From Candidatus Nomurabacteria bacterium (GTDB lineage: Bacteria > Patescibacteriota > Minisyncoccia > Phycocordibacterales > UBA9973): 57,085 nucleotides of DNA. Within the stretch, counting starts at the first letter, position 1. The number at the start of each line of letters is the position of its first letter. Where the stretch lies: contig CALRAE010000005.1 in NCBI GenBank assembly GCA_943350445.1, positions 1 through 57,085 on the forward strand, written 5' to 3'. The position numbers were made by a program, and so were the translations under genes. Positions 14,456 through 17,914 of this stretch are shown in pieces. A model generated the notes under the pieces. That model was not told the DNA's origin. It worked only from the letters and a program-made list of their open reading frames with translations, and made no database searches.

Positions 14456-15406
14456 ATGGGTAAAAAGATACTTTTGTCAGGTATAAAACCGACTGGCCGC
14501 CCACACATAGGCAACTATTTTGGCGCCATGAGGCAGTTTGTGGAACTAGCTAAGGATTATAAAAGTTATATTTTTATCGCAGACTATCACGCGCTTAATT
14601 TTATACAGAATAAGGCAGAAATGAAGGAAAATATAATTGGAGTGCTTCTTGATTATCTTGCTATTGGCCTAGATCCAAAAGAAGTCACACTATATAAGCA
14701 AAGTGATGTGTCTGATCATACAGAACTCACTTGGGTTTTTGACACTATTACTACCATGCCGTACCTTATGCGTGCGCATGCGTACAAGGATGCCGAGGCA
14801 AAAAGTAAAGAAATAGTGGTGGGCACCTTCAATTATCCAATGTTGATGGCTACCGACATCTTGCTCTACAGTCCAGATGTAGTGCCGGTAGGTCAGGATC
14901 AAAAGCAGCATGTCGAGATAGCGCGAGACACTGCGGAGAAATTCAATCATATATTTGGTGAGACTTTCAAATTACCAGAAGTGATGATTATGAAGGATGT
15001 AGCAGTCGTGCCGGGGACTGATGGCAGAAAAATGTCGAAGAGCTATGGCAACACCATTCCGCTTTTTGCCGAATATGTGGAAATAAAAAAGGCTGTTATG
15101 AGCATTGTCACTGATTCTGGCGAGGGAATTCCAAAAAATGTCTATGCGATACATAGCCTTTTGCGTCCTGCGTCCGAACTTCTACCTATATATGAGAACA
15201 AGACTGGTAAATATAAAGAACTAAAAGAATTACTGATAGAAGATTTAGAGAAATTTATCGCACCACTACGAGAAAAAAGGAAAGAATTTGAAAAAGATAT
15301 TCCAAAAGCTCTAGCGATACTCAAAGCGGGCGGAGAAAAGGCGAAAGAGGTTGCATCCAAGAAAATGGATGAAGTGCGAGAAAAGATAGGTGTAAATGTC
15401 TACTAA
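14456..15406 (+). CDS. trpS: Tryptophanyl-tRNA synthetase
   Basis: A 316-residue class I synthetase: GRPHIGNYFGAM (HIGH-type motif at 17-20) and KMSKSYGN near 192-196. It charges tRNA-Trp and so reports tryptophan supply. Start MGKKILLSG at 14456 follows a -10 box by 7 nt. A TrpR-like gene follows after 14 nt and is probably in the same transcript; the next region looks like a tryptophan-controlled leader. Confidence 0.95.
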   Translation: MGKKILLSGIKPTGRPHIGNYFGAMRQFVELAKDYKSYIFIADYHALNFIQNKAEMKENIIGVLLDYLAIGLDPKEVTLYKQSDVSDHTELTWVFDTITTMPYLMRAHAYKDAEAKSKEIVVGTFNYPMLMATDILLYSPDVVPVGQDQKQHVEIARDTAEKFNHIFGETFKLPEVMIMKDVAVVPGTDGRKMSKSYGNTIPLFAEYVEIKKAVMSIVTDSGEGIPKNVYAIHSLLRPASELLPIYENKTGKYKELKELLIEDLEKFIAPLREKRKEFEKDIPKALAILKAGGEKAKEVASKKMDEVREKIGVNVY

Positions 15407-15746: not shown

Positions 15747-15787
15747 TTGACCCCTCACTTTTTCTTTGTTATCATGTACTAGTACAT
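15747..15787 (+). promoter_or_regulatory. Promoter overlapped by TrpR-type operator palindrome
   Basis: -35 TTGACC (15747-15752), 17 bp spacer, extended -10 TGTTATCAT (15767-15775). A perfect 14 bp palindrome ATGTACTAGTACAT (15774-15787) covers the end of the -10 box and the predicted start site. ACTAGT is the core of known trp operators, so this is a good candidate site for the adjacent TrpR-like protein. Confidence 0.65.
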
Positions 15788-15823
15788 AGATACATAAGTG
15801 CTGGGGAGGGTAAAAGTAAAACT

Positions 15824-15913
15824 ATGAAAAATAAAGTAACAATAAATAAATTAACGAAATCTTGGTGGGGCGCAAAAGGCTCAAGTTTTTTAGCTTTTGC
15901 GCTATTTTGTTGA
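15824..15913 (+). CDS. Candidate Trp leader peptide (29 aa, tandem Trp codons)
   Basis: ATG 15824 to TGA 15913 encodes 29 residues, MKNKVTINKLTKSWW followed by GAKGSSFLAFALFC. Two Trp codons in a row (15863-15868) lie just before the first arm of a hairpin (GCGCAAAAGGCT 15870-15881 with AGCTTTTGCGC 15892-15902). This is the layout of trp attenuator leader peptides, in which ribosomes stall at Trp codons when charged tRNA-Trp is scarce. A GGGGAGGG stretch lies 13 nt upstream, a rare Shine-Dalgarno-like site for this window. A real small membrane peptide is the alternative. Confidence 0.55.
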   Translation: MKNKVTINKLTKSWWGAKGSSFLAFALFC

Positions 15914-16012
15914 TTTCTTTTTAGATATACAAACAAGGAATCAATTAAGTGGCGTATGAGCTTCCAGGTTTTTCTTTTTATGGGGGAGGCTTGCATTCCT
16001 ATATGAATACGT

Positions 16013-16018
16013 TATACT
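16013..16018 (+). promoter_or_regulatory. Candidate internal promoter TTGCAT-16-TATACT
   Basis: -35 TTGCAT (15991-15996) and -10 TATACT (16013-16018) with 16 bp between them. The same pair and spacing occurs at 23075-23102. It would start a short RNA near 16025 that runs to the terminator at 16134-16167. Confidence 0.4.
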
Positions 16019-16079
16019 TTTAACGTGAATAAAAACATACAAGCAAATAGTTATTTTTTATTTTTTTCCTCCCATAACC

Positions 16080-16167
16080 TTAGAAGGCTGATATTTGCGC
16101 TGTAAAAATAAACTAAAACAAAATTACAACTCAAACACCAGCCTTCTAAAACAGAGGCTGGTGTTTT
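16080..16167 (+). promoter_or_regulatory. Alternative hairpins: antiterminator versus terminator
   Basis: Terminator: AACACCAGCCT (16134-16144) pairs with AGGCTGGTGTT (16155-16165), followed by TTCGTTT. The same left arm can instead pair upstream: TTAGAAGGCTG (16080-16090) is perfectly complementary to CAGCCTTCTAA (16139-16149). The two structures exclude each other, the hallmark of an attenuator. Upstream CCTCCCATA (16068-16076) can pair with the GGGGGAGG stretch at 15982-15989, which could link the leader peptide region to this switch. No T-box consensus is visible. Confidence 0.55.
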
Positions 16168-16214
16168 CGTTTCACTACGAGAGCACAACTGGAAACGTTC
16201 TTAGATAACTTCAT

Positions 16215-16466
16215 ATGAAACTACGTAGATCTTTATGGGGCTCGCCCTTTAGTGCATTCGATACTCTAAAGTTGAATGCAATGATGAGCGGAGCCGAGAT
16301 GGTTAATTGTCCCATCATGGAATGTCCGGAGATATTTTTTAACGACCCCAACTTGTTTAAATGTTGGTTGGGTGCACGTTATGAAACTTTTCTATTACAG
16401 GCTATGAAGGAGAATAATCGAAAGCAAACGCGTTCGGCGTTCACCGGACACCAGGCGGAGCCCTGA
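16215..16466 (+). CDS. Small hypothetical protein after the attenuator
   Basis: An 83-residue frame with two Trp (8, 51) and three Cys, no recognised family, G+C richer than neighbours. It is the only gene between the attenuator-like terminator (ends 16167) and a strong terminator (16489-16524), so it would be the regulated gene if the switch works in cis. No Shine-Dalgarno sequence; codon use is not clearly coding, so it may be spurious. Confidence 0.4.
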   Translation: MKLRRSLWGSPFSAFDTLKLNAMMSGAEMVNCPIMECPEIFFNDPNLFKCWLGARYETFLLQAMKENNRKQTRSAFTGHQAEP

Positions 16467-16488
16467 TCACCTCCAAGTAAATAATAAG

Positions 16489-16524
16489 AGCCGGCCATGT
16501 TTTGAATGACTATGCCGGCTTTTG
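16489..16524 (+). terminator. Rho-independent terminator
   Basis: AGCCGGCCAT (16489-16498) and ATGCCGGCT (16512-16520) form a stem with one bulged C, followed by TTTTG. It separates the Trp region from aspS. Confidence 0.85.
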
Positions 16525-16573
16525 TAATTTTCAGGCTGTTTTTCTTTTATAATTATGTTAGAATAATTTTACT

Positions 16574-17914
16574 ATGCGAGACAGAATTTATATCAAAGAT
16601 TTGAAGGATAATGTTGGCAAAGAGATAATTATTGCTGGATGGGTAGATGTCAGGCGCGATCAGGGTAAAATGGTCTTTTTTGATATGCGAGATATGACTG
16701 GTAGGGTGCAATGCGTAGCTTTGCCCAGCCGAGCGGAAGTAATAGAAAAAGCTAAAAAAATTCGCCCAGAATGGGTTTTAAAAATAACAGGCCTAGTCAA
16801 CAAGCGTCCGCCAAAAAATGTAAAGGCGGGGGTCTTGAATGGCGAAGTGGAGCTCGAAGTCACAGGTGTCGAAGTTTTAGCTGAGGCTGAACCACTTCCT
16901 TTTGATATGTCTGAGGCGGGATATAATTTGGAATTGACGACTGAACTCGACAATCGTGCTTTGGTCTTACGTCATCCGAAAGTGCAAGCAGTTTTTAAGG
17001 TTCAAGAAACAATTATTGACTCTTTTAGACAGTTCATGAAGCAAAATATGTTTTTTGAATTTCAATCTCCAAGCATTACTCCTGCAGTGGCAGAGGGTGG
17101 TAGTGAGGTTTTCAAGATTGATTATTTTGATAAAAAAGCGTTCTTGACCCAATCTCCTCAACTTTACAAGCAAATAGTTATGACTGCCTTTGAGAGAGTT
17201 TTCTCTGTAAACAAAATTTTCCGTGCAGAACCGAGCGCGACGACAAGACATTTGACCGAGGTTGTGTCTCTTGATGCCGAGATGGCATTTATTGATGGTT
17301 GGGAAGATGTACGTGATATGGCTGAGGGTACAGTGAAATTTATTTTAGAAAAAATAAAAGAAAAAAATGCTGGAGAGTTAGTGCTTTTAAAAGCTGAACT
17401 TCCGGTAATGATAGAAAAAACTCCTACTTTTTCTCTACAAGAAGCTCAGCAGAAAATATTTGATAATTTCGCACGTGATGTCCGAGGTGAAAAAGATTTA
17501 AATCCTCAAGATGAGAGAGAATTGTGCGAAATAGTGAAAAAGGAAACTGGTTCAGACTTCGTATTCGTTTATGGTTATCCGACCATAAAAAAGCCTTTTT
17601 ATGTATACCCAAACCCAAAAAATCCGGAATTCAACGAAGGTATGGATTTGCTTTGTCGTGGCCTCGAGTGGCTCTCTGGTGGACGTCGAATAAATAAGTA
17701 TGATCAGCTGATGGAGCATGTAAAGCTTTGGAAGATGGATCCTCAAAAAATAAAAATGTTTCTAGAAGCTTTCAAGTATGGTGTGCCACCTGAAGGAGGA
17801 TTTGCTTTCGGTGCAGAGCGTATCACCATGCAGCTTCTTGGACTTAAAAATATTCGTGAGGCGTGTATGTTCCCGAGAGATATGGAGAGAATAGATGAAA
17901 GGCTTTCTGAATAA
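16574..17914 (+). CDS. aspS: Aspartyl-tRNA synthetase, archaeal type
   Basis: A 446-residue class II synthetase. N-terminal OB fold (GWVDVRRDQGKMVFFDMRD), then TQSPQLYKQ, motif 2 FRAEPSATTRHLTEV near 215-230 and motif 3 GAERITMQLLGL near 413. It lacks the large insertion domain of bacterial AspRS (about 590 aa) and matches the short archaeal/eukaryotic class; QSPQLYKQ and SGGRRI-type residues favour aspartate over asparagine. With gatB at 28760, a non-discriminating enzyme that also makes Asp-tRNA-Asn is likely. ATG 16574 lies 9 nt after TGTTAGAAT (16556-16564). AsnRS is the alternative call. Confidence 0.85.
   Translation: MRDRIYIKDLKDNVGKEIIIAGWVDVRRDQGKMVFFDMRDMTGRVQCVALPSRAEVIEKAKKIRPEWVLKITGLVNKRPPKNVKAGVLNGEVELEVTGVEVLAEAEPLPFDMSEAGYNLELTTELDNRALVLRHPKVQAVFKVQETIIDSFRQFMKQNMFFEFQSPSITPAVAEGGSEVFKIDYFDKKAFLTQSPQLYKQIVMTAFERVFSVNKIFRAEPSATTRHLTEVVSLDAEMAFIDGWEDVRDMAEGTVKFILEKIKEKNAGELVLLKAELPVMIEKTPTFSLQEAQQKIFDNFARDVRGEKDLNPQDERELCEIVKKETGSDFVFVYGYPTIKKPFYVYPNPKNPEFNEGMDLLCRGLEWLSGGRRINKYDQLMEHVKLWKMDPQKIKMFLEAFKYGVPPEGGFAFGAERITMQLLGLKNIREACMFPRDMERIDERLSE

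Follow-up and report, generated by a model that had tools for sequence, protein, structure and literature searches.

The trpL leader and TrpR operator of E. coli combine tandem Trp codons, mutually exclusive hairpins and a CTAG operator, with trpEDCBA downstream. The element described here, from a Nomurabacteria genome, resembles that arrangement in that its tandem Trp codons (WW) abut segment 1 and its stop lies near segment 2, the 1:2, 2:3 and 3:4 pairings exclude one another, a U-run follows, the CTAG operator overlaps the promoter and, in relatives of this genome, trp genes lie downstream. Unlike the E. coli system, it is found behind trpS-trpR, in a variable slot before aspS; several of its copies are probably leaderless, its cargo is often not trp, and it has no Rfam match. 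For actinobacterial trp attenuators, gGCC-rGCy-GGCC triples have been reported (Seliverstov et al. 2005, PMC1262725). These share with the present element the repeated UGG codons and the complementary triples common to terminator and antiterminator; the Nomurabacteria segments, however, read GGCGC, TGCGC and GGCGC, the lineage is a different one, and the actinobacterial description includes no TrpR operator. Searches of Rfam at gathering and relaxed thresholds returned only tRNAs and a sub-threshold match to Phe_leader at a second element (block B); neither Trp_leader nor other Rfam leaders reached the gathering threshold.

The stretch analysed, hereafter called the window, comprises 57,085 nt of forward-strand DNA from contig 5 of a Ca. 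Nomurabacteria-related MAG, whose genome of 617 kb is 99.6% complete. The initial annotation had proposed a ribosome-stalling Trp attenuator 3' of trpS, and this reading largely holds, on account of the conservation of WW, the covarying helices and the trp cargo in about ten relatives. We consider it highly probable that positions 15747-15979 belong to a two-layer Trp switch of the E. coli kind that occurs throughout the genus, and that in this copy segment 4 has decayed, the leader most likely does not terminate, and only TrpR would modulate transcription (Table 1). As far as sequence can show, the family has the properties of a classical trp attenuator combined with a TrpR operator; that it is transcribed, depends on the ribosome and responds to Trp is inferred. 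The open-licence literature, part of which was covered by title or abstract only, yielded no paper on attenuation and leader peptides in this phylum; within that scope, this is the first trp attenuator case in the phylum that we could find.

Table 1. Features of the trpS-aspS interval in window coordinates.
Feature	Position	Strand	Basis or remark
trpS, tryptophan--tRNA ligase	14459-15406	+	TIGR00233 280 bits vs cut-off 176.75
TrpR-like repressor, 98 aa	15421-15717	+	PF01371 Trp_repressor 59 bits vs gathering 27
Promoter TTGACC-17-TATCAT; predicted +1 near 15782	15747-15775	+	10/12 match; same layout in relatives
TrpR operator candidate, CTAG palindrome GTACTAGTAC just 3' of -10	15776-15785	+	Predicted; conserved palindrome
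Trp leader peptide ORF MKNKVTINKLTKSWWGAKGSSFLAFALFC*, 29 codons + TGA (15911-15913), WW 15863-15868	15824-15913	+	
Segment 1 GGCGCAAA, abutting WW	15869-15876	+	8/8 pairs with segment 2
Segment 2 TTTGCGCT, partner of 1 or 3	15896-15903	+	Pairing and conserved helices
Apical 2:3 antiterminator, GATTTC 15912-15917 with GGAATC 15937-15942	15912-15942	+	90.4% of cells paired
Segment 3 GTGGCGT	15949-15955	+	6/6 pairs with segment 2
Degenerate segment 4 and surviving T-run TTTTTCTTTTT (15969-15979)	15961-15979	+	4/7 terminator pairs
Promoter of second attenuator, TTGCAT-16-TATACT	15991-16018	+	Read from sequence
Leader MNKNIQANSYFLFFSSHNLRRLIFAL* with GTG start and Phe codon run, predicted to be leaderless	16025-16105	+	Covariance model 157.5 bits
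Segment A AGAAGGCTG, within leader C-terminus	16082-16090	+	A:B antiterminator 93.3% of cells paired
Segments B (16136-16147) and C (16155-16163) and T-run, intact terminator	16136-16172	+	
Orphan 83-aa ORF in cargo slot	16215-16466	+	Without Pfam or NCBIfam match
Inverted repeat, likely terminator before aspS	16479-16530	+	
Aspartate--tRNA(Asn) ligase (aspS)	16574-17914	+	NF003483 462 bits; right border of cargo slot

The Trp leader and its alternative RNA structures

The 29-codon ORF with TGGTGG was present as initially described, downstream of a trpS and a TrpR-like gene that were confirmed by their matches to TIGR00233 and PF01371. The region is indeed free of genes, save for the orphan 83-aa ORF. 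The hexamers of what had been called a strong promoter are there, but shuffled sequences yield about four promoter-like sites per region of this size. The rarity of Trp-Trp, also offered in support, is weak evidence when taken alone: among Markov regions of the same length, 3.7% contained a WW ORF by chance, and the window contains 11 other small WW ORFs. Since 3.7% is not negligible for one genome, this argument was dropped. The ORF stands out from chance because it is conserved in relatives.

A DNA search of 60 relatives revealed two conserved blocks, A (≈15758-15961) and B (≈16005-16172). R1, a covariance model built on the core of the attenuator, matched 35 of the 80 genomes of the genus, the window copy scoring 88 bits. 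The first Trp codon and an in-frame start are kept in all 36 copies and WW in 29, the other seven having W-Arg, W-Phe or W-Tyr in its place. In 27 of the 36 copies, WW and the stop are 39 nt apart; indels among the copies preserve the frame, and the N-termini drift among relatives (e.g., MKNNFQTNKIEKLSNKAWWGASFAFASIC, MNNIYKNNLNKSWWNANTYFFASIC and MKQNYKIHTLTKSWWGAKPSAFALFC). A conserved WW ORF of drifting sequence in sister genomes, as had been anticipated, was thus found; absence of the WW ORF from close relatives, which had been named as refuting the proposal, was checked for, and the claim survived. Beyond the genus, R1 matches were all below 35 bits, and the seven inspected were coding sequence or ordinary hairpins, so that the Trp model appears confined to the genus, within the reach of a sequence-based model. 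Shine-Dalgarno spacing is poor in the window copy (GGAGGG ≈14 nt 5' of the ATG), and several Trp leader copies are predicted to be leaderless, with translation probably beginning at +1.

We considered the possibility that the conserved small peptide is the active product, perhaps a small protein working in trans, and that its translation is not what is sensed. Some residues following WW do recur (FALFC), and trans action has been reported for the trpL peptide of Sinorhizobium (PMC7298713). However, the N-terminus is not conserved, and the C-terminus recurs because it is encoded in RNA segment 2 (TTTTGCGC). A function of the peptide in its own right is, in our estimation, highly unlikely.

In the family layout, segment 1 (GGCGC...) comes right after WW and segment 2 before the stop, and the terminator consists of segment 3 (..GGCGC), segment 4 (GCGCC..) and a U-run. 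The 1:2, 2:3 and 3:4 hairpins are mutually exclusive and supported by covariation at the family level. In the terminated structure (26 sequences, 21 pairs), 85.8% of cells were paired, with 30 double-change cells compared to 12.1 in shuffles (0/500), and sliding the partners roughly halved the pairing. The terminator alone contained 21 double-change cells (8.5 shuffled), and the antiterminator, 92.2% paired, contained 11 (1.9 shuffled). From one relative to another, the outer terminator pairs change among C-G, U-A and A-U, and no other single observation speaks as strongly for selection on the RNA. In the window, hairpins 3' of the WW ORF are present, as had been noted; the fold of 15780-16214 has z = -5.0, and GGGAGGG (≈15804) pairs with CCTCCC (≈16069) in this long fold.

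These data also bear on the alternative that the WW ORF arose by chance and that the hairpins are the ordinary intrinsic terminator of a trpS-trpR operon. A terminator is expected after an operon, and the chance frequency given above, with the 11 other WW ORFs, leaves room for an accidental leader. Chance does not account, however, for WW in 29 of 36 copies with drifting N-termini and frame-preserving indels, for three mutually exclusive covarying helices, or for trp genes downstream in relatives; moreover, the terminator is the very part that has been lost here, whereas WW, 1:2 and 2:3 are kept. This explanation is barely credible.

Of the two layers proposed for the Trp switch, the second would be attenuation, for which the alternative pairings and the codon placement were read from the sequence and the role of the ribosome is inferred. 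Scarcity of charged tRNA-Trp would stall the ribosome at WW, where it masks segment 1 and allows 2:3 to form and RNA polymerase to continue. With ample Trp, it would reach the TGA past segment 2 and mask that segment, upon which 3:4 and the U-run would terminate transcription. In footprint folding of the kind suggested by the initial annotation, a simulated ribosome on the Trp codons left many relatives with 2:3 and no 3:4, whereas a ribosome placed at the stop let 3:4 form in most. Of 26 relatives, 8 retain the terminator with the ribosome at WW. Their minimum-energy fold has 3:4 in both ribosome states, so that switching would need co-transcriptional folding kinetics or timing. Four rows of this analysis (G014, G064, G065 and G061) were misaligned, although their hairpins fold.

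Tiny Trp-rich ORFs with a strong Shine-Dalgarno sequence were seen 3' of the Trp attenuator or operator at L030, L042, L025, L046 and L050 (products MWPAADEVWS, MWW, MLWDPEWR, MLWDIEEWFI and MGWSSLDDWWCLGL). They might serve as an additional stage of sensing or as a sink for Trp.

The TrpR-like protein and its candidate operator

The window protein exceeds the gathering score of the TrpR superfamily, PF01371, but reaches only 40.1 bits with the NCBIfam TrpR model TIGR01321, under the equivalog cut-off of 67.25, and is therefore called TrpR-like. YerC/YecD belongs to the same Pfam family; the window protein is nearer to TrpR than to YerC (TIGR02531, 27.2 bits). Thr38, Arg48, Thr74, Arg77 and Gly78 are invariant in the TrpR-like proteins of 27 relatives, and the conserved residues align to E. 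coli TrpR at its LTP, TR and ATITRG stretches, in which Thr44, Arg54, Thr81, Arg84 and Gly85 are the Trp contacts. Of 100 relatives, 39 yielded a TrpR-like protein; for the closer matches, the gene order is mostly trpS-trpR.

The CTAG palindrome is present in 31 of 31 copies adjoining trpR, including that of G080, in which it lies ≈300 nt upstream, before an inserted ORF. It is missing from all four copies whose genomes gave no TrpR match (G075, G018, G016 and G074). The probability of this co-occurrence was 1 in 52360, without correction for phylogeny or shared ancestry. Other palindromes at or after the -10 in relatives include GCACTAGTGC, ATACTAGTAT and ATACTAGCATGCTAGTAT. That the TrpR-like protein is a functional Trp-dependent repressor is inferred from the contact residues and the operator only, in the absence of binding data. 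In the first layer of the switch, likewise inferred, the Trp-bound protein would cover the palindrome after the -10 and block initiation.

Could TrpR alone regulate the region, relatives included, with the leader a mere by-product? Three trpR loci do have the operator without a WW leader (L023, with trpD, L031 and L050). The four trpR-less genomes, on the other hand, keep leader and hairpins while lacking the operator, indicating that the attenuator is maintained independently, and regulation by TrpR alone thus seems very unlikely.

In trpR-less genomes, W-F or W-Y-Y was observed in the WW position (YWFSTK, FWYYTK; L112, L168 and L170), possibly making these leaders a broader aromatic sensor.

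Cargo genes and the state of the window copy

The contents of the slot between attenuator and aspS vary among relatives, with aspS kept as its right border in most of those in which that border was reached. In about ten relatives, the slot holds trp biosynthesis genes, either trpC-E-G, trpE, trpB or trpB-A, and for eight of these relatives they were checked by profile: IGPS-TrpE-TrpG in G080, TrpB-TrpA in G061, TrpB-like proteins in G060, G101, G119 and G111, and TrpE in G102 and G008, followed in the latter by shikimate-pathway genes. That the score exceeds the NCBIfam trpB cut-off was verified in just two genomes, G061 and G101, and the trpE-trpG of G066 and the trpB of G116 were identified by eye. 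In G013, trpD follows the operator with no leader. Further relatives have a PRPP synthetase, a PEP-synthase-like protein or small orphan ORFs, and many have non-Trp or orphan cargo. The genes controlled in relatives would often be trpE, trpG, trpC, trpB, trpA or aromatic-pathway genes. It is only at the family level that the element lies upstream of trp genes, and not in this window. Ultra-small Patescibacteria are usually described as dependent on partners for amino acids, and a conserved two-layer Trp switch with changing trp cargo indicates an ability to detect amino-acid starvation and respond to it.

Segment 4 of the window copy has the sequence CTTCCAG; 4 of 7 pairs remain, and the terminator hairpin has -2.7 kcal/mol, compared to -3.6 to -17.7 kcal/mol in relatives, most of which are below -7. 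This does not amount to a working intrinsic terminator. Queries with the TrpE and TrpB of relatives gave no match in this genome, in single-protein searches lacking a positive control. Because of the decayed segment 4 and the missing TrpE and TrpB matches, the window leader most likely no longer terminates. The lesion could also be a consensus error in the MAG.

The loss of segment 4, the failure to find TrpE and TrpB and the orphan cargo would also fit a decaying relic without any regulatory effect whatever. On the other hand, promoter, operator, leader frame, WW, segments 1-3 and the T-run are all intact, as is the Phe attenuator downstream, and we regard the relic as possible, though unlikely. 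Instead, the window attenuator is probably, to judge from its sequence, a partly decayed copy under TrpR alone that reads into the orphan ORF; control by TrpR may remain, and termination has probably been lost. In this genome, only TrpR would then modulate transcription, into the Phe attenuator and the orphan ORF. The 83-aa ORF had no relative in the genus and no match in Pfam or NCBIfam; inferring a function from it was abandoned for lack of relatives.

A second attenuator and its modular family

Block B corresponds to a second, intact attenuator (16013-16172) with a Phe codon run, ≈150 nt 3' of the Trp element, which the initial annotation had overlooked. Its GTG start lies exactly 6 nt 3' of the -10, and a -10-like hexamer is found at the same spot in most members of the family. 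The 16105-16172 region folds with -21.7 kcal/mol (z -7.2), and the A:B antiterminator contains 15 double-change cells compared to 5.5 expected. It resembles the proteobacterial Phe leader RF01859 in having a Phe codon run, an antiterminator and a terminator, but it scores 26.4 bits, where the gathering score is 55, and is not a member. It differs further in being predicted leaderless and in that Leu, Pro, Ile and Met runs are found on the same scaffold as well.

A model of the block-B family (R2) matched 35 of the 80 genomes of the genus, with at most four copies each. The codon run changes between members (FFF, LLLL, V/I, CC and MMM) while the RRLIFAL-coding segment A stays constant; leaders with PVPP form a weaker-scoring group. 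A Phe run precedes an aminotransferase/PDT/TyrA operon and an F-rich leader precedes prephenate dehydratase; PVPP or similar Pro leaders stand directly before proB-proC-proA or proC (L166 475-3441, L185, L164 and L163); citramalate synthase and IlvA are each preceded by an Ile run, and a homocysteine methyltransferase-like gene has an MMMAMMM leader ahead of it. The cases with Ile, Phe or Met runs include order-level relatives (L191, L194, L192 and L195). Several of these pairings are weak model matches (34-46 bits), and the agreement of run and cargo was noticed post hoc; where a Leu or Cys run stands upstream of a gyrB- or proS-like gene, there is no obvious match between codon and cargo. 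We think it fairly likely that the order uses a modular set of attenuators, mostly predicted to be leaderless, in which a single scaffold (segments A, B and C) carries swapped codon runs that often match the cargo, and to which the trp switch is the TrpR-linked counterpart. The Cys run is perhaps a member of this family as well. Such runs make the amino acids monitored by uncultured species readable from sequence, and pairing runs with cargo offers a route to function assignment and to maps of amino-acid dependence across the group.

Leu, Val/Ile or Cys leaders of the block-B type were also seen before a GyrB-like gene, with small ORFs between, at L085, L086, L087, L089, L141, L146, L155 and L157. 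Block-B elements precede a prolyl-tRNA-synthetase-like gene at L090, L154 and L158, the L090 leader having a Cys-Cys pair. Finally, small cargo-slot proteins encoded after the Phe attenuator in G018:C8, G104:C21 and G117:C11 have a VPxRxTxLPCG(C/H) motif in common.
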